From the NCBI GenBank assembly GCA_029881495.1, contig JAOUMJ010000023.1, positions 1 to 44,481 on the forward strand: DNA of 44,481 nt, read 5' to 3'. Source of the DNA: Nitrospinota bacterium (GTDB taxonomy: Bacteria; Nitrospinota_A; UBA7883; JACRGQ01). Below the pieces are notes generated by a model. That model was given only the letters and a program-made list of their open reading frames with translations, was not told where the DNA came from and ran no database searches. The position numbers were made by a program, and so were the translations under genes. This document shows positions 1 through 18,999 of the stretch, piece after piece (the first letter of the stretch is position 1; each line of letters starts with the position of its first letter).

Positions 1-655
1 CTTTTTCGGCGACAACCACCGAGACTTTGCTCAACTGGTTCATCCTTTCCGCAAAGGGGGGTATAAATGCCGTCGGCATGTGCTGAACTATCAAACCCCC
101 TACCGGGAAATTACTATCAAACTCCGGCAGCAGTTTTTGGAGTGCGGCTGGACCTCCGGTAGACGTACCGATAGCGACCAACTCCGCTTCCCTGAAAACC
201 GGCTTAACTTCCTCCCGCTTTTGCTCTCTTGCCGGCTCATGGGCCTTTTGGGCAATCAGGTCCTTTATTCTGGAGGCGACCTTCTTTCTGAACTTTATGT
301 TGGATGTTGAAGTATCTCCAAACGACTTCGTAATGAAATCTTCGGCTCCTATCGATAACGCTTCGAAAGTAGCATGCGCCCCCTCTTCCGAAAGGGAGCT
401 TATCATAAGAATTTTGGCGGAGCTCTTCTTCTTCAGGATCTTTAACGCTTCAAGACCGCTCATCTCAGGCATGATGATGTCCAGCGTAATAACATCCGGC
501 TTAAGCTCTTCAGCCATTTCGACGCCTTCGCGTCCATTGCTGGCCATACCCGCGACCTCCATATCGCCATCCTCCTGGACGGCCATGGAAAGCATCTTCC
601 GAACAAGGGCGGAATCATCGACAATCAGGACTCGAATCGGCTTTTTTCTGTCCAT
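1..655 (-). CDS. cheB: CheB, chemotaxis protein-glutamate methylesterase (partial, C-terminus outside window)
   Basis: Demethylates and deamidates chemoreceptors when its receiver domain is phosphorylated by CheA, giving sensory adaptation in the cytoplasm. Reading the minus strand from the ATG at 655 gives MDRKKPIRVLIVDDSALVRK, a receiver start with an acidic DD pair. Next comes DVITLDIIMPEMSG, whose LD carries the phospho-acceptor Asp, and ITKSF with the conserved Lys. A linker of about 40 residues follows, then the methylesterase start AIGTSTGGPAAL with the catalytic Ser and QHMP with the catalytic His. About 218 codons are visible and the rest lies beyond position 1. It starts 11 bases after the cheA stop and so is the third gene of the cheX-cheA-cheB operon. 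I see no frameshift. Identification is firm. Confidence 0.93.
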   Translation of the reverse strand, partial: MDRKKPIRVLIVDDSALVRKMLSMAVQEDGDMEVAGMASNGREGVEMAEELKPDVITLDIIMPEMSGLEALKILKKKSSAKILMISSLSEEGAHATFEALSIGAEDFITKSFGDTSTSNIKFRKKVASRIKDLIAQKAHEPAREQKREEVKPVFREAELVAIGTSTGGPAALQKLLPEFDSNFPVGGLIVQHMPTAFIPPFAERMNQLSKVSVVVAEK

Positions 656-666
656 TTTCTGAAACG

Positions 667-2943
667 TCAACTGATGTATTTTCGAACCGTTTTAACCACA
701 CCTGCCAAGTCTGTCTTGGTGTGGAAATCATCCATCCCGGCCTTATAGCATTCCTCCCTCTTCACGTTTTCCGTCACGAAAGAAAGCGCCACGACAGGAA
801 TTGTTTTCAGCTTCTCGTCTGCACGGATCTTCATGGTCATTTCAATACCGTCCATTTTGGGCATCATAATGTCGGTGACTACCAAGCCTATTTCTCTATT
901 CTCCGAAAGCACTCTCAAACCCTCTATCCCATTACTCGCTTCAACCACGGAAAAGCCCTTATCCTCAAGGAACTTTTTTTGCATCATTCTGGCTGAATTC
1001 GAATCGTCGACAAGCAGCACTTTTTTTACAGCCTTCCCCTTGGAGCCGCTTTTGCTGCTGTTTGATTTTCTCGGCGTACCACCGACCGCCAGGACATTTC
1101 CACCTTCTTCAATAATCTCCATCAGCCCGCCAAGATCCACTATCAGGGTCACTTTCCCATTGCCAAGAACGGTGGCCCCAGCAATCCCCTTGGGTTGTAT
1201 GAATTTCCCGATAGACTTGATTACAACCTCTTCCTGACCGAGGAGTTCCTCAACGACAATTCCAACCTTTTTTTCCGCGATAGCGATCACTACCACATAC
1301 ATCCAGTCTTCGTCCCTGCCGGAATCTTCATCCGTGGTGATCTCGAAAACATCTTTCAGGCGAAACAGAGGCAACACCTCATCGCGAAGATGTATAACCT
1401 CCCTTTGATCGACATACTGAAGCGAGTCTACCGATGTCCTCACGGTTTCGACTACCGAAACCAGCGGAAGGGCGAAATATTCGATCCCCACTTTCACCAT
1501 CAACGCCTGAATGATCGCAACCGTAAGCGGAAGCTTTATGGAGAATGTCGTCCCTTTTCCGATTTCCGTTGTAATCGATATCGTGCCGTTCAATTTAAGG
1601 ACGTTGTTTCGGACAACATCCATCCCGACGCCACGGCCCGAAATATCGGTTGTCTTTTCCGCGGTGGAGAATCCGGGAGCCATCACGAGGTTCAACTTAT
1701 CTCTTTCGCTCATACGATCTACTTCCGATTCCAGCACAATCCCCTTCTCTATCGCTTTTTTGACCAGCTTTTCAGGATCCATCCCCTTGCCGTCATCTCT
1801 CACCTCGATTATTATGCTGTTCCCCTCGTGAAATGCGGCCAGAGTGATCTTCGCCTCATCCGCTTTACCGGCCTGCCTCCGCTGTTCCGGCATCTCAATT
1901 CCATGGTCGACCGCATTTCGTACCAGGTGGACAAGCGGATCGCCTATCTCTTCCATAACAGACTTGTCGAGCTCTGTGTCTTCTCCTTCAAGCGACAGCT
2001 CTATATTTTTCCCCAAAGCCTTCGCCAAATCGCGAACCATCCTCGGAAAACGGCTGAACACCTTCCTCACAGGCTGCATTCTGGTCTTCATTACCCCTTG
2101 CTGGAGGTCCGCGGTAACCATATTTATCTGTCCAACCGTATCAGACAAAGACTGAACAAGCGGATCGTTTTCATGAGCCTGCTCCAGTTCTGAAGCTATC
2201 TGCAGTATCCTGTTCCTTCCAAGCACCAATTCGCCTACAAGGTTCATAACTTCATCAAGCCTGGTCACATCGACCCTGATAGTCTGTTCCGCCTTATCAG
2301 TTTCACGCCTTCCGAAATTTTGACCTTCTTCAGGCGACCGCCTCCTCTCAAGGTTTGACGGAACCTTCTCCGGCAATTTCGAGCCGCTGGCGGGAACCTC
2401 CTCCGAATCCCTTCGTCCCCTTCTCTCGATCCCGAGCTCAGCAAGGAGATCCGTCTCCGAGACAGCTTCCTCCTCGACAATCAGCCTCCCTGTTCCGGTC
2501 ATTTCCGCAGAAGGCTTCTTTGCGACAGCCGCCGCCGGAGCGGCGTCTGTAGTAATCATGCATTTTCTTAAATCTTCGAGGAGGGGATTAATATCCATCG
2601 AAAGTTCCCGGTTTTCGTGGATATTTCCAAGAAGCGTCTTTATGGCATCAGAAGCCTTGAATACAGCGTCATTGATCGTAGGGGTCATCTTCAATTCCCC
2701 CTGTCTGCATTTGTTCAGAACGTTTTCGGCATTGTGTACGATGTCGACAATTTTTGTAAAACCAAGAAATCCGGCGGCTCCCTTGATAGTATGGACGCAT
2801 CGGAAAACCTTGTTGATGAGATCCATGCTGTCAGGAGAATTTTCCAGCTCAATGAGGTCGTTATCGAGACCCTCGATGATTTCCCGTGTTTCGGTGACGA
2901 AATCGGCAACGATCTCACGCATTTCATCCTTTTCGTCAACCAT
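667..2943 (-). CDS. cheA: CheA histidine kinase with C-terminal receiver domain (CheA-REC hybrid)
   Basis: Central chemotaxis kinase that passes phosphate from ATP to CheB and CheY-type receivers. The 758 residues show an N-terminal HPt domain with phospho-acceptor His51 in CVHTIKGAAGF and a low-complexity linker (about 130-220). A dimerisation helix follows (VDVTRLDEVMNLVGELV), then an ATPase domain with HLVRNAVDHGIE (N box) and DISGRGVGMDVV (G2), and a CheW-like domain. A C-terminal receiver begins near residue 638 (KKVLLVDDS) with phospho-Asp near 691 (VTDIMMPKMDG). The extra receiver makes it longer than the classical protein of about 650 residues and is typical of hybrid CheAs. The receiver end reads FHTKTD, keeping the Lys but not the usual KP. 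The ATG at 2943 follows a GGGGGGAAAG ribosome-binding site. It lies 35 bases after cheX and 11 before cheB; no cheW, cheR or receptor gene is visible. Confidence 0.96.
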   Translation of the reverse strand: MVDEKDEMREIVADFVTETREIIEGLDNDLIELENSPDSMDLINKVFRCVHTIKGAAGFLGFTKIVDIVHNAENVLNKCRQGELKMTPTINDAVFKASDAIKTLLGNIHENRELSMDINPLLEDLRKCMITTDAAPAAAVAKKPSAEMTGTGRLIVEEEAVSETDLLAELGIERRGRRDSEEVPASGSKLPEKVPSNLERRRSPEEGQNFGRRETDKAEQTIRVDVTRLDEVMNLVGELVLGRNRILQIASELEQAHENDPLVQSLSDTVGQINMVTADLQQGVMKTRMQPVRKVFSRFPRMVRDLAKALGKNIELSLEGEDTELDKSVMEEIGDPLVHLVRNAVDHGIEMPEQRRQAGKADEAKITLAAFHEGNSIIIEVRDDGKGMDPEKLVKKAIEKGIVLESEVDRMSERDKLNLVMAPGFSTAEKTTDISGRGVGMDVVRNNVLKLNGTISITTEIGKGTTFSIKLPLTVAIIQALMVKVGIEYFALPLVSVVETVRTSVDSLQYVDQREVIHLRDEVLPLFRLKDVFEITTDEDSGRDEDWMYVVVIAIAEKKVGIVVEELLGQEEVVIKSIGKFIQPKGIAGATVLGNGKVTLIVDLGGLMEIIEEGGNVLAVGGTPRKSNSSKSGSKGKAVKKVLLVDDSNSARMMQKKFLEDKGFSVVEASNGIEGLRVLSENREIGLVVTDIMMPKMDGIEMTMKIRADEKLKTIPVVALSFVTENVKREECYKAGMDDFHTKTDLAGVVKTVRKYIS

Positions 2944-2978
2944 CTTTCCCCCCTATCATCGGAAAACAGCAAAAAGGA

Positions 2979-3440
2979 TTATTTTTCGAAACTCGTCTCC
3001 ACCACAAATTGAGCGCCATCCACCGTGAAAGGTATTGCAACTGTCGGGCCGCTGGTTATAGATTCGATTTCGTGATTTTTCCCCGTTATAACGCTTGGCA
3101 GTCCAGCTTCAAAGTTGTGCCCCTTTTCCGATAGAGCTCTTCTTGCGTCTCCCGAAATCATGTTTGTGATCTCGCCCACGGCATCCTTTATATCGTCGTT
3201 CAGTTCAGTGAGAGTTTCGCCAAGCATGCCTCCGACGATTTTCAACGCCGCCTCCTTTGAAAGGCTGATGATCACCACTCCCTTGGTGGCTCCAGTAAGG
3301 CCTATCACTCCCGAAATATCACCGGATGCGACTTTATCCTTTTTCAAATACGGTTTGCCCGCAACAGGCTTTACGAACGCCATCATCTCAAGGACATTCA
3401 GCGTAGCTTTAAGAAAAGGATTTACAAAATCAGCGTTCAT
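2979..3440 (-). CDS. cheX: CheX-family chemotaxis phosphatase
   Basis: The CheX/CheC/FliY family dephosphorylates CheY-P type receivers and resets the signal. The protein has about 153 residues. The N-terminus NADFVNPFLKATLNVLEMMA matches the family opening, and the active-site helix reads DAVGEITNMISGDARR, with the paired Glu and Asn (E-x2-N) that insert into the receiver active site. I chose the ATG at 3440 rather than the in-frame ATG at 3452 because GGAG sits 6 bases upstream of 3440 and the family normally begins M-N-x-x-F-I/V-N-P-F. It is first in the che operon, with a plausible sigma70 promoter about 100 bases upstream. A phosphatase encoded next to a CheA with its own receiver suggests that the attached receiver, CheB or a remote CheY is its target; which one is unknown. 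Confidence 0.9.
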   Translation of the reverse strand: MNADFVNPFLKATLNVLEMMAFVKPVAGKPYLKKDKVASGDISGVIGLTGATKGVVIISLSKEAALKIVGGMLGETLTELNDDIKDAVGEITNMISGDARRALSEKGHNFEAGLPSVITGKNHEIESITSGPTVAIPFTVDGAQFVVETSFEK

Positions 3441-12839: not shown

Positions 12840-15656
12840 TCAAACCCCGCTTTCAGCAAGATGTTTCGCGCATCGTTCACATACGGCCGGGTGTTCGCTG
12901 TTTCTCCCCAGATCCGTAGAGTAATTCCAGCATCTTTCGCATTTCTCCCCATCGGCCTTCAATACCGATATCTCCATCTCCCCCTCTGATTTGGGTTTCA
13001 CCACGGCCTGTGAAACGATGAATATAAATGGAAGCTCGGCCTCATACTCCTTCATAACAGTCTGATGCTTGCCGGATGCCGATATTTCAAGTTTCGCATC
13101 AAGCGAATGACCTATTACTTTGTCACGCCGCTTTTCTTCAAGCACTTTTAATACCCGGTTACGAATTTCAAGGATGGTATCCCATTTTTTTCGAAATTCG
13201 AATTCCTTCCCGCTGAACAGCGCCATAAGGCGTTTACCGGAAGTTTCCTCTGAATTTGCAAACCGGAACCACCCTTCATGAAGGAATTCCTCGGAATGCA
13301 CAGTCGAGCCTTTTGGGCACAATGAATCTTCGGGTATCGCCTTCCATATCTCTTCTGCTGTAAAGCTGAGAACAGGAGCAACCAGCCGAACCATTAGTTG
13401 CGTGAGTGCGTATATGGTCGTTTGAGCGGCGCGGCGTCCATCTGACTCTGCAGGATATGTATAAAGCCTGTCCTTGACGATATCAAGATAGAAAGAGCTT
13501 AGATCCACTACGCAGAAATTATTAATCTGGTGGTAGAGGACATGATATTCATGGCGGTCAAATGCCTCCAGCACCTTTTTTTGCATCTGATAGGCGCGAT
13601 CCAATATGTATCTGTCGAGTTCAGGCAATCTGTGACTGTCCACGAAATTCTTGTCTGGATTAAAATCATACAGGTTGCTAAGCAAGAAACGGAAGGTGTT
13701 CCTGATTTTGCGGTACGACTCGGAAAGGCGCTTTAAAATTTCATCGGATATCCTCACCTCTTCCATATAGTTCTCGGAAGATATCCATAACCTCAAAACC
13801 TCCGCGCCGTATTTCTTTACCACCTGCTCGGGGGTTATCGTGTTGCCTACCGATTTCGACATCTTCTTCCCCTGCTTGTCCACGACGTATCCGTGGGTAA
13901 GTACCGTTTTATACGGTGCGGGATTGCCGGTACCTACCGATTCCAGGAGCGAGCTTTGAAACCACCCTCTATGCTGGTCGCTCCCCTCAAGATAGAGGTC
14001 GGCCGGCCATGAAAGCTCCTTCCAGTCTTTAAGCACCAGCGCGTGGCTCACTCCGGAATCGAACCAGACATCAAGGATATCCTCTTCCTTCCTGAACCTG
14101 TCGCTTCCGCATTTGCACTTCGCGCCGGAGGCGAACTCCCCTGCGTCAAGCTCGAACCAGACGTCCGCCCCTTTATTCTCTATCATGTCGGCGGCTCTTC
14201 TTGCCACGTCGGCGCTCATCAGCGGTTCATCGCATTTTTCACAGAAAAGAATGGTTATCGGCACGCCCCACGACCTTTGCCGCGAAACGCACCAGTCGGG
14301 GCGCCCCTCGACCATTCCGTGAATTCGTTCCTTCCCCCATGCGGGAACCCATTTGGTTTTGCCGATGTTCTCAAGAGCCCTCGCCCGCAGATCATTCTTC
14401 TCCATGCTGATAAACCACTGCGCGGTTGCGCGGAAGATTATCGGTTTCTTGCATCGCCAGCAGTGGGGGTATGAGTGCCCCAGCTTCTCCTCATGGAGGA
14501 GCCTCCCTGTGGATGACAGCTTTTCAATCACGTCGCCGTTCGCTGCCGGAACCTTGAGCCCTCCGAAGAACTCCAGATCGTCTACATATCTGCCGTCACC
14601 CCTCACCGGGTTATAGACCTCAAGGCCATACTTCAATCCGACTATATAGTCATCCTGCCCATGCCCCGGGGCTGTATGAACCGCGCCGGTACCCTGTTCG
14701 AGGGTTACATGCATACCTGTGATAATCGGGGATCTTTTTTCATACAGGGCATGCCTCGTGTCGACATTTTCCAGCTCCGACCCCTTAAAGGTCTTAACGC
14801 TCTTTACGTCGTCTACTCCAAGTTTGCTTAAAACCTTTCCGGCAAGCTCCGTGGCGAGAATGAGGATACCGTCCTTATACTCCACTGCGGAGTAGTCGAA
14901 CCCGGGGTGCACCGCAACCGCGCGGTTGGCGGGGATTGTCCAGGGGGTGGTGGTCCAGATCAGAATGGAAACCTCCCTGTCGGAAGGGAGGCCTAGTTTT
15001 TCTGCTTCCCCTTCCCAAAGGGGAAACTTGACGAACACGGATGGGGATACATGGTCTTCGTACTCCACCTCGGCTTCCGCAAGAGCCGTGCAGCAGGAAA
15101 CACACCAGTGCACCGGTTTTAATCCCTGGTATAGAGAGCCGTTCTCAATGAACTTTGCAAGCTCCCTTACCGTATCGGCTTCATATTTATAATTCATTGT
15201 GAGGTAGGGATTCTCCCAATCCCCGAAGATGCCGAGCCTTTTAAACGACTCCCTCTGTTTGTCAACGAACTCGGAGGCGTAGTCACGACAGAGCTTCCTT
15301 TTCTCCGAGCGGGAAATCTCCCCCTTCTTTTTGCCAAGCTTCTTGTCTACCTGGAGTTCGATAGGGAGTCCGTGGCAATCCCACCCCGGAACGTAAGGGG
15401 CGTCGAATCCCTGCATGGTTTTGATCTTTACTATCATGTCCTTGAGGATCTTGTTAAGAGCATGCCCCGTATGGATGTCGCCGTTTGCGTACGGCGGGCC
15501 ATCGTGAAGGATATATTTGGGCGCGCCGGTCCTTGCCTTGCGGATCTTTTGATACATGTCCGCCCACTCCTCCAGCAGGCGCGGTTCAAGCGTTGCCAGC
15601 CCCGCCTTCATGGGGAAGTCGGTTTGAGGAAGGTTCAGGGTATCTTTGTAATCCAT
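12840..15656 (-). CDS. ileS: Isoleucyl-tRNA synthetase
   Basis: Charges tRNA-Ile with isoleucine and edits valine. 938 residues, the usual bacterial type I length. The class I HIGH motif appears as HTGH at residues 62-65 ([14 protein letters not shown]) and the second signature as KKMSKSVGN. The tryptophan-rich WFISMEK and [13 protein letters not shown] stretches of the family are present. The C-terminal zinc site reads CERCW...CERC. The ATG at 15656 gives the family start [10 protein letters not shown]. It lies 82 bases downstream of the histidine kinase on the same strand and is followed at once by lspA. All key residues appear intact. Confidence 0.97.
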
Positions 15657-15738: not shown

Positions 15739-17598
15739 TCAGACTATGAGTTTGCGGATGCGCGGCAGGAGATCCTCGGGGACAAAAGGCTTGGTGATAA
15801 AATCGTTCGCCCCGGCGCGGAACATTTCATCCTTTTTGACAATCTCTCCGGATGGCATAAGTGCGATAAATGGAAGAGATGCGGTCAGGTGGTTTGAGCG
15901 TATCTTTTGCAAAAGTTCCAGTCCGCATGCGTTCTCCGTTCCGGTCGAGGCCAGGATCAGATGTGGCTGGCTTTCGTTTATCATCTCTTCCGCCTCAGGA
16001 CAGCTGTTGGCAATCCTGATCTCAACATTGAGTGTGCCGATCAGTTTGGATAGAAGCTTCCGAAGGAACTTGTCATCATCCACTATTAGAACCTCGGGTT
16101 TTACCTCCGGCACTGAAAAATAGAATGTGCTCCCCGCGCCTACTGCTGATTCAGCAACCAAATTACCGCCAAGCGCAGTTGCGATCTCCTTGCAGAGAGG
16201 CAATCCCATACCGGTTCCCAGTTCCCCCCCTGTTCCAACTGATGAAGTCTTTATCTGGTAATCAAACAGCGACTCGATAATGTCGGGGCTTATACCAACC
16301 CCTGAATCGCTCACGGCAAGGGAAGTCTTTTCACCGTAAGGCAGGTAGAGGCGCACCTTCCCCCCTCTGTTGCTGAATTTTATCGCGTTGGAGAGGAGAT
16401 TTCTCACAACCTCATGATAGAGCGCGGAATCCACATAAATGCGCGTACGCCTCGGAACATCGTTTACAACCTCTATCCCCTTGCTCGCGGCAAGATGGAA
16501 AAAATAATCAAAATTCCTGGCAATGAGATAATGCATATCTTCAAAGCCAAAGACCGGTTTTAGCGCGCCGGTCTTCAGCCTTCCAATGTCTAGCAGACTT
16601 TCGATCAGTTTCATCAATGATTCACCCGTAGATATCGATGAATTGACCAGCTTCAACGCTTCATCCCCCATCCCGTATTTCGGAGTGGAAATCAGCACCC
16701 TCATTGTGCTGATAATAGTAGCGAGCGGACCTTTCAAGTCGTGTGAGACAAGCGAGAGCATTTTATCTTTCAGGACTGTAGCTTTCTCAGCGTTCTCCTT
16801 GGCGGATATAAGGTCTTCCTCCCGTTTCTTCCTGTCCGTTATATCTATGGACAGTCCGCAAACGGCATATGGCCTCCCCTCCTTGTCCAGGATAGGAAAA
16901 CAGCTGGTCAGAAATACCTTTGGCCTTCCGTCGACAATCTCCGTATCTTCCCTGTCAAAAGGCTTGACCTCCCGGAAAAGTTTCTGTTCGCTCTTCCAAA
17001 GTTTTTGCGCGAACGACACCGGAAATACTTCTGCGCCTGTTTTGCCGACTACGGCATCCTCTTCCAGATTATGCAACTCAAGGAAACGCTTGTTCACCAT
17101 GACAAACTTTCCGTCTTCCCCCTTTACATATACCGCGGCTCGAGAACCGTTCAACAGCTCCCGAACACTTTCGATAGCGCTCCCTTTAGCAACAACTTCT
17201 CCGATCGTCGCTTCTTCTCTGGAAATCCCCATGATGCCGATAATATTCCCACCGAGATCCTTTATCTGCGAAGCGGAAACAAACGACCGGAAGATCTCGC
17301 CATTCCTGCGCTTGTTCAGGATCCAGCCATGAAATTCCCCACGTGCCTGCATTGTCTGAGCCGGCTTTTCGGACTCGGACGCATTGGCGTACAACATGAC
17401 TACGTTCTTGCCGATAACCTCGGATTCTGCATAACCGAATGTCTTTTCGGCGGTCTTGTTGAATTTGACAATCCTTCTGGCCTTGTCGACAACGATTATC
17501 ATCTCGTTGGAATTGTCCAGAAAACTGGATGAGACATCGCGATTTTTGATCATATTGCCAAAAATTTCTCCGCTCTTGTCCGGTGCCTTGCTATCCAT
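15739..17598 (-). CDS. PAS-PAS hybrid histidine kinase with degenerate receiver
   Basis: Cytoplasmic two-component sensor kinase of 619 residues without membrane segments. PAS 1 covers about 25-130 (NEMIIVVDKARRIVKFNKTA) and PAS 2 about 145-255, ending in SIDITDRKKREEDL. The HisKA domain holds phospho-His286 (LSLVSHDLKGPL). The ATPase domain shows the N box RNLLSNAIKFSN, the G1 box SDSGVGIS and the G2 box GTGMGLPLC. The C-terminal receiver keeps the acidic cluster (LIVDDDKF) and Lys603 (FITKPF). The phospho-acceptor position, however, is Ser551 (LILASTGTENACG) instead of Asp, and Met581 replaces the usual Thr/Ser, so the receiver probably cannot be phosphorylated. The kinase may signal to a partner encoded elsewhere. 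No strong ribosome-binding site is visible before ATG 17598. Confidence 0.9.
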   Translation of the reverse strand: MDSKAPDKSGEIFGNMIKNRDVSSSFLDNSNEMIIVVDKARRIVKFNKTAEKTFGYAESEVIGKNVVMLYANASESEKPAQTMQARGEFHGWILNKRRNGEIFRSFVSASQIKDLGGNIIGIMGISREEATIGEVVAKGSAIESVRELLNGSRAAVYVKGEDGKFVMVNKRFLELHNLEEDAVVGKTGAEVFPVSFAQKLWKSEQKLFREVKPFDREDTEIVDGRPKVFLTSCFPILDKEGRPYAVCGLSIDITDRKKREEDLISAKENAEKATVLKDKMLSLVSHDLKGPLATIISTMRVLISTPKYGMGDEALKLVNSSISTGESLMKLIESLLDIGRLKTGALKPVFGFEDMHYLIARNFDYFFHLAASKGIEVVNDVPRRTRIYVDSALYHEVVRNLLSNAIKFSNRGGKVRLYLPYGEKTSLAVSDSGVGISPDIIESLFDYQIKTSSVGTGGELGTGMGLPLCKEIATALGGNLVAESAVGAGSTFYFSVPEVKPEVLIVDDDKFLRKLLSKLIGTLNVEIRIANSCPEAEEMINESQPHLILASTGTENACGLELLQKIRSNHLTASLPFIALMPSGEIVKKDEMFRAGANDFITKPFVPEDLLPRIRKLIV

Positions 17599-18120: not shown

Positions 18121-18999
18121 ATGATACTGAGCATGACCGGTTTTGCCCGGACTGAATCGGAAAATGAAAAACTGAAATGCGTCGTTGAGATACGATCCGT
18201 AAACCACCGGTTTCTGGATATCTCCGTTCGCCTCCCTTCGAAAAGTTTTGAGCATATAAAGGCTATCAAGGATCTCGTTTCGGCAAAGATATCCCGCGGT
18301 TCGGTGGAGATCACAGTTTCGCTGGGGGAGAGTGAAAACAACCAGAAAAGGCTGGTCATTGATGAGAACCTGGTAACGCAATACATGGCTGGAGCCAAAT
18401 CGATAGTTTCGAAATTCCAGGTTTACGGCGAAATCGATCTGCCGACACTTTTTTCCATGAAAGACATATTCAAATACGAAGAGACGGAAGATGACGCCGA
18501 AGGACGATGGCAGCTTATCCAGAAAACCGTCAACGGCGCTCTTGAAAAACTGGTCGAGATGAGGCGGGTCGAAGGTGATGCCTTGGAAAAGGATATACTT
18601 TCACAACTCGACATAATCGAAAAATGCGCCGAATCGATAATCAAAACAAAAGACATCCAAAAAAAGGAGGTCACTGAAAAGCTGAGGGCGCGCCTCGAAG
18701 AACTTTTCGCCGACTTCAAGGCCGACGAACAGAGGGTCATTACCGAAGCCGCCATACTTGCCGACCGCTCCGACATCAGTGAAGAGATCATACGGCTGAG
18801 ATCACACATCGACCAGACAAGAGAACTTGTGAAAAACCACGGGCCAAACGGCAGGAAACTTGAGTTCATCCTTCAGGAGATGAACAGGGAGACCAATACG
18901 GTCGGTTCGAAAAGCACGCTTTTCAATATAAGCACGGATGTGATCGAGATCAAAAGCTGTCTTGAAAAGATCAGGGAGCAGGCCGCAAACATTGAATAA
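18121..18999 (+). CDS. yicC: YicC family endoribonuclease-like protein
   Basis: The YicC/YloC family includes endoribonucleases acting on some small RNAs and mRNAs in other bacteria. The 292 residues carry the N-terminal signature SMTGFAR and VEIRSVNHRFLDISVRLPS, central ISRGSVEITVSL, and the C-terminal DUF1732 block ending GPNGRKLEFILQEMNRETNT and STDVIEIKSCLEKIREQAANIE. These segments match the family in order and spacing. The ATG at 18121 is preceded by GGCGGTGG. Gmk follows 21 bases later, the usual yicC-gmk pairing, so the two are likely co-transcribed. Identification is firm; the substrate in this organism is unknown. Confidence 0.94.
   Translation: MILSMTGFARTESENEKLKCVVEIRSVNHRFLDISVRLPSKSFEHIKAIKDLVSAKISRGSVEITVSLGESENNQKRLVIDENLVTQYMAGAKSIVSKFQVYGEIDLPTLFSMKDIFKYEETEDDAEGRWQLIQKTVNGALEKLVEMRRVEGDALEKDILSQLDIIEKCAESIIKTKDIQKKEVTEKLRARLEELFADFKADEQRVITEAAILADRSDISEEIIRLRSHIDQTRELVKNHGPNGRKLEFILQEMNRETNTVGSKSTLFNISTDVIEIKSCLEKIREQAANIE

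Follow-up and report, generated by a model that had tools for sequence, protein, structure and literature searches.

A hybrid histidine kinase of a Nitrospinota bacterium carries at its C-terminus a receiver-fold domain in which Ser551 stands in place of the phospho-acceptor Asp. The gene is located in a stretch of 44,481 nucleotides (contig JAOUMJ010000023.1 of assembly GCA_029881495.1), which was analysed as a whole and is called the window. Judged from sequence and structure models, the receiver fold is kept, and the acceptor Asp, the Thr switch and the MPxM loop are lost; the kinase motifs are kept, the reading frame is open and codon use is normal. By its sequence the domain fits the definition of an aspartate-less receiver (ALR) or pseudo-receiver (PsR), i.e. 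it is recognised as a family member and is without the Asp and other catalytic residues. We assign a probability of about 0.55 to the reading, suggested by analogy with known systems, that this pseudo-receiver gates a predicted-active kinase in cis and that the phosphate goes to an unlinked response regulator. A preliminary description of the DNA had proposed that the hybrid kinase is intact apart from a pseudo-receiver. Alignment, domain scores, structure model and codon evidence agree on this, and the reading frame, its strand and coordinates, the TCG codon, Ser551 and Met581 were all found where they had been placed (Table 1).

Table 1. Coordinates of the hybrid kinase gene, its domains, selected residues and its neighbours in the window.
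Feature	Position	Strand	Basis or comparison
Hybrid histidine kinase ORF, 619 aa, PAS-PAS-HisKA-HATPase-receiver	15739..17598	-	ORF and Pfam
PAS domain 1, residues 25-125	17224..17526	-	Pfam PF00989
PAS domain 2 (PAS_4), residues 149-257	16828..17154	-	Pfam PF08448
HisKA dimerisation/phospho-His domain, residues 277-344	16567..16770	-	Pfam PF00512
His286, phospho-acceptor His, H-box SHDLKGPL	16741..16743	-	
HATPase_c catalytic domain, residues 391-498	16105..16428	-	Pfam PF02518; 39/43 conserved columns of 350-498 kept
Receiver-fold domain (putative pseudo-receiver), residues 499-619	15742..16104	-	PF00072, AlphaFold2, Foldseek
Asp507-Asp508, acidic (Mg-binding) pair, kept	16075..16080	-	
Cys533	16000..16002	-	Gly in 61/67 family members
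Ser551 (TCG), phospho-acceptor Asp position	15946..15948	-	Asp in 64/67 other family rows (A2)
Cys558, D+7	15925..15927	-	Asp in 52/67
Met581, Thr/Ser switch position	15856..15858	-	Thr in 56/67, Thr or Ser in 62/67
Pro582, T+1 (small residue expected)	15853..15855	-	Pro in 0/67 others
Lys603, pocket Lys of FITKPF, kept	15790..15792	-	
ileS, same strand, 82 bp downstream of kinase	12840..15656	-	
yicC, divergent neighbour of kinase	18121..18999	+	

Three routes agree on the Asp position at 551. The first is an alignment of 68 hybrid kinases (A2), taken from 72 long matches with L054, L056, L070 and L080 left out; it also supports the earlier assignment of Met581 to the switch position. Secondly, the best sequence match in the PDB, 3t6k, has 'CD' opposite 'as' of the query, which is the same placement. 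Thirdly, an AlphaFold2 model of the receiver (75 sequences) has a confident receiver fold from beta1 to alpha5 (pLDDT 92.4, pTM 0.88) with position 53 of the excerpt, corresponding to residue 551, as the last of beta3; in the full-length model beta3 comprises residues 547-551. Structure prediction with a receiver alignment had been proposed as a check, and when run it put no other Asp into the site. The sole acid within residues 549-558 is E555, which sits at D+4 in the loop. Stretches matching over residue 551 have Asp in 135 of 139 cases, a count that includes several stretches of a single locus and, among the four without Asp, an out-of-register match. A separate receiver alignment (A1) contained the query and 74 of 87 receiver references; those left out were additional receivers of proteins already included, along with some distant receivers. 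The Pfam Response_reg profile matched residues 503-614 with 60.4 bits (cut-off 30.2; whole-protein E 2.3e-16). Among the Foldseek matches of the receiver model were the solved receivers RpaA and RR468 (TM 0.95 to 5uht_B); the latter, among the closest solved receivers, comes from HK853-RR468 complexes. The full-length model retrieved 6qrj (ShkA), which does not match as a whole (rmsd 17.3), and a docked arrangement of the receiver was not seen. The acidic pocket and the Lys of FITKPF, reported earlier as retained, are present (D507, D508 and K603), as is F600. The damage extends past Ser551 into the beta3-alpha3 loop (M554T, P555E, M557A and Cys558) and includes T and T+1.

The kinase core had been described as intact, and the alignment bears this out. 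Family-conserved kinase columns are kept in 62 of 68 cases (23/25 in HisKA, the remainder in the catalytic domain), and H-box, N, G1 and G2 boxes are present with H286, N400, N404, D431, G433, G435 and G461-G465. Similarly, the claim that a response regulator gene is not adjacent was upheld in the window. The kinase gene sits between yicC and ileS, flanked by ileS/lspA and yicC/gmk/folD, and the closest other receivers of the window lie about 15 kb off, in a CheA-type protein and in a receiver ORF at the left end. These two occupy window positions 1-2943 on the minus strand: the CheA-type protein consists of Hpt, H-kinase_dim, HATPase, CheW and receiver domains; the receiver of the ORF after it, which runs off the window, has Leu at the Thr position. 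The kinase gene and ileS may form an operon; no minus-strand terminator-like site was seen between them, in a scan that yielded no more sites than shuffles.

A recognisable orthologue of the whole protein was not found in 60 genomes, its own included, the best foreign match having 38% identity over residues 143-619. Nor did the receiver find one in 24 genomes of the phylum, again with its own included; the best match in the other 23 was 40%. Kinase-plus-receiver (76 rows) and kinase-only (68 rows) trees gave the kinase no supported close sister. A pairing with L041, which has Glu at the Asp site, was weak (support 63) and absent from the kinase-only tree; it was discarded. Kinase matches were present in four of 19 ileS-flank stretches (L203, L206, L207 and, weakly, L210), several of the 19 stopping at a contig edge near ileS so that no neighbour is visible there. 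In the relative G001 yicC and ileS adjoin directly, without a kinase; in G006 another gene lies between them, and G005, G008 and G010 have other kinases nearby. The 588-aa kinase of G005 (L207:611-2098, minus strand) is encoded on the ileS strand, with ileS as the next gene downstream. It was rejected as an orthologue because the Asp is present in its receiver, which has a two-residue deletion in the beta3-alpha3 loop, and because in its kinase core it clusters, strongly supported, with L275 and L280, apart from the protein described here.

How common are altered receivers in this setting? Profile searches of the genome matched 87 receivers, this one included, 11 Hpt and 45 HisKA domains. Its 89 distinct receiver stretches have Asp in 78 cases and another residue in nine; in two the position is uncovered. 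Scoring was on five residues, i.e. the two acids, the Asp, the Thr/Ser and the Lys, and seven incomplete stretches were left unscored. At least one of the five is missing from 18 of the 82 complete receivers, the Asp from eight. The A2 hybrid kinases gave 13/68 and 4/68, respectively, and five of the 14 A2 rows from this genome are without at least one of the five. Pseudo-receivers are put at about 6% of bacterial receivers, and aspartate-less ones, as cited there, at about 4% overall (PMC12632262); comparison with these rates is rough because the family set was selected by similarity to this protein and scored by a scheme of our own. On the kinase-only tree the 13 altered receivers among the 68 require at least 11 changes. 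The four Asp-less rows require four, and independent loss is not established for them because a single clade is compatible with the AU test (p 0.22).

Elsewhere in the same genome, receivers at L238, L234, L250, L248, L256, L258 and L260 are without Asp and have Ser, Asn, Gly or Ala there. L229:2793-4250 (minus strand) of this genome and L279:34-1242 (plus strand) of G006 form a supported pair in the kinase-only tree (98/95), one member from each genome, and both receivers are heavily altered. In G011, two family hybrid kinases converge at L146 (397-1872, plus strand, and 1894-3021, minus strand). One has Tyr for the H-box His (TYDLKSPL) and an intact receiver pocket; the other has the His, and Thr instead of the receiver pocket Lys. 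These could be complementary halves. A family kinase of G018 (L142:1501-2640, minus strand) has Asn for the H-box His (VNDLKSPL) with an intact receiver pocket. A broader generalisation would be that PAS-HisKA-HATPase-receiver kinases of this phylum repeatedly turn an output receiver into a non-phosphorylatable module for input or gating, with the present protein as one such case responding to a ligand or thiol signal of its own through Cys533/Cys558. We regard this as doubtful.

The mechanism we favour would operate as follows. A receiver without the acceptor Asp should not take up phosphate. The pseudo-receiver, joined to the sensor kinase by a very short linker, would accordingly be unable to accept a phosphoryl group from His286. 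It may still dock on its own kinase module, because the receiver scaffold, the acidic pair, Lys603 and most of the conserved columns outside the pocket are kept, and it would there gate autophosphorylation or the access of a partner. The gate would be set by the PAS signals, perhaps also by something bound to the pseudo-receiver. A response regulator encoded at another locus would receive the phosphoryl group in trans, since no such gene is adjacent and many other receivers of the genome could serve as partners. Gating in cis is taken as most likely because of the analogy with ShkA and CikA, the pseudo-receivers of which inhibit autophosphorylation, and some pseudo-receivers bind ligands (PMC12632262). 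In the ShkA paper pseudo-receivers are proposed as input domains of kinases (PMC7010744).

Alternatively, the receiver is a relic. It would have become idle once the kinase served a separate response regulator, would drift under weak constraint and be kept only by the fusion. This is a tentative possibility. It is in line with the failure to find an orthologue that would show constraint and with the long end branch of the kinase (1.23 in the kinase-plus-receiver and 1.18 in the kinase-only tree vs medians of 0.72 and 0.59). When the 68 proteins are ranked by mean identity to the family, the receiver comes out as the fourth most divergent, the catalytic domain as the eighth and HisKA as the 12th. 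The conservation pattern bears on the question from both sides. Of the 25 receiver columns conserved to at least 80% in the family 18 are kept, the losses being L520I, G533C, D551S, M554T, P555E, M557A and T581M. Five of eight pocket columns are lost vs two of 17 elsewhere (Fisher p 0.017), so that 15/17 non-pocket columns are kept, plus K603, D508 and G559, which argues against drift. At a 60% threshold four of ten pocket columns are kept vs 21 of 32 others, a difference without statistical significance (p 0.27). Decay can go much further in the family: the paralogue L229 has lost 11/17 non-pocket conserved columns in its receiver. Against a relic are also the confident fold and the open frame, in which the codon-usage index of the receiver part (0.767) is like that of the remaining parts (0.735-0.768) and above that of its shifted frames (0.677 and 0.593).

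The preliminary description had considered that the receiver senses something other than phosphate or serves as a fixed docking domain; this is possible by analogy with CikA, ShkA and VirA. As a docking platform the pseudo-receiver would be without effect on the kinase itself and would recruit a response regulator or another protein. For an orphan gene without an adjacent response regulator, specificity must come from somewhere, and VirA/VirG of Agrobacterium tumefaciens provides a precedent: VirA is a hybrid kinase as well, and its C-terminal receiver is believed to bring in the response regulator (PMC4705274). VirG is a named partner, however, and none was found for the receiver described here. 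Further, the VirA receiver appears to keep its Asp, as the same paper names a D766N mutant (PMC4705274), so that it is no close parallel. We consider a pure docking function unlikely.

Slightly less probable still is a ligand or redox input, in which the altered pocket or Cys533/Cys558 would sense a metabolite or an oxidant and tune the kinase; this can go together with a cis-gating pseudo-receiver. Both cysteines replace residues that are common in the family (Table 1), and pseudo-receivers which bind c-di-GMP or quinones or are switched by Cys oxidation have been reviewed (PMC12632262). Yet two Cys per receiver are not unique, since four of the 67 others have two and one has three, and a binding motif or ligand site was not identified in the receiver. 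Finally, that an error of sequencing or assembly, conceivable in a draft of 72 contigs, masks a normal D-x-x-M-P-x-M-D-G loop is most improbable, because D-x-x-M-P is absent from every frame of the loop (the other two frames read SWPRPERRTHADWN and PGLDRNGERMRTG); moreover, TCG differs from either Asp codon at all three bases and M581 and P582, 30 codons away, are altered too.

We know of no name for the kinase family to which the protein belongs. Pseudo-receivers in hybrid kinases are an established subject in the literature, and this protein is one more example. A 2025 review (PMC12632262) describes it as a mystery how bacterial pseudo-receivers are turned on and off. In many paralogues of this family, related kinase cores carry receivers whose pockets are intact, partly lost or wholly lost, so that the effect of site loss on gating could be compared. 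The frequency of altered receivers in the kinase family may merit attention; as a single protein, the kinase is an ordinary example.

In CikA the pseudo-receiver stands at the C-terminus. The kinase shares with CikA of Synechococcus elongatus the hybrid histidine kinase architecture and a receiver fold without a working phosphorylation site (PMC12632262). Unlike CikA, it has two PAS domains as sensor, and its receiver is recognised by PF00072 and keeps both acids and the Lys. ShkA of Caulobacter crescentus has a pseudo-receiver (REC1) after the catalytic domain of a hybrid kinase in a similar manner (PMC7010744), but continues into REC2, a second receiver, with a DDR linker motif separating the two. 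REC2 and the linker motif are absent here because the protein ends after its pseudo-receiver, which is its first receiver. The ALRs in general have, as here, a receiver fold, and the pocket Lys and the aromatic residue at K-3 are kept; Ser accounts for 15% of their Asp replacements (Maule et al., 2015; PMC4395418). The domain differs from them in two respects: it has retained an acid at the second acidic position, as only 29% of ALRs have, and it has lost the Thr/Ser switch, which 61% of ALRs possess (PMC4395418).
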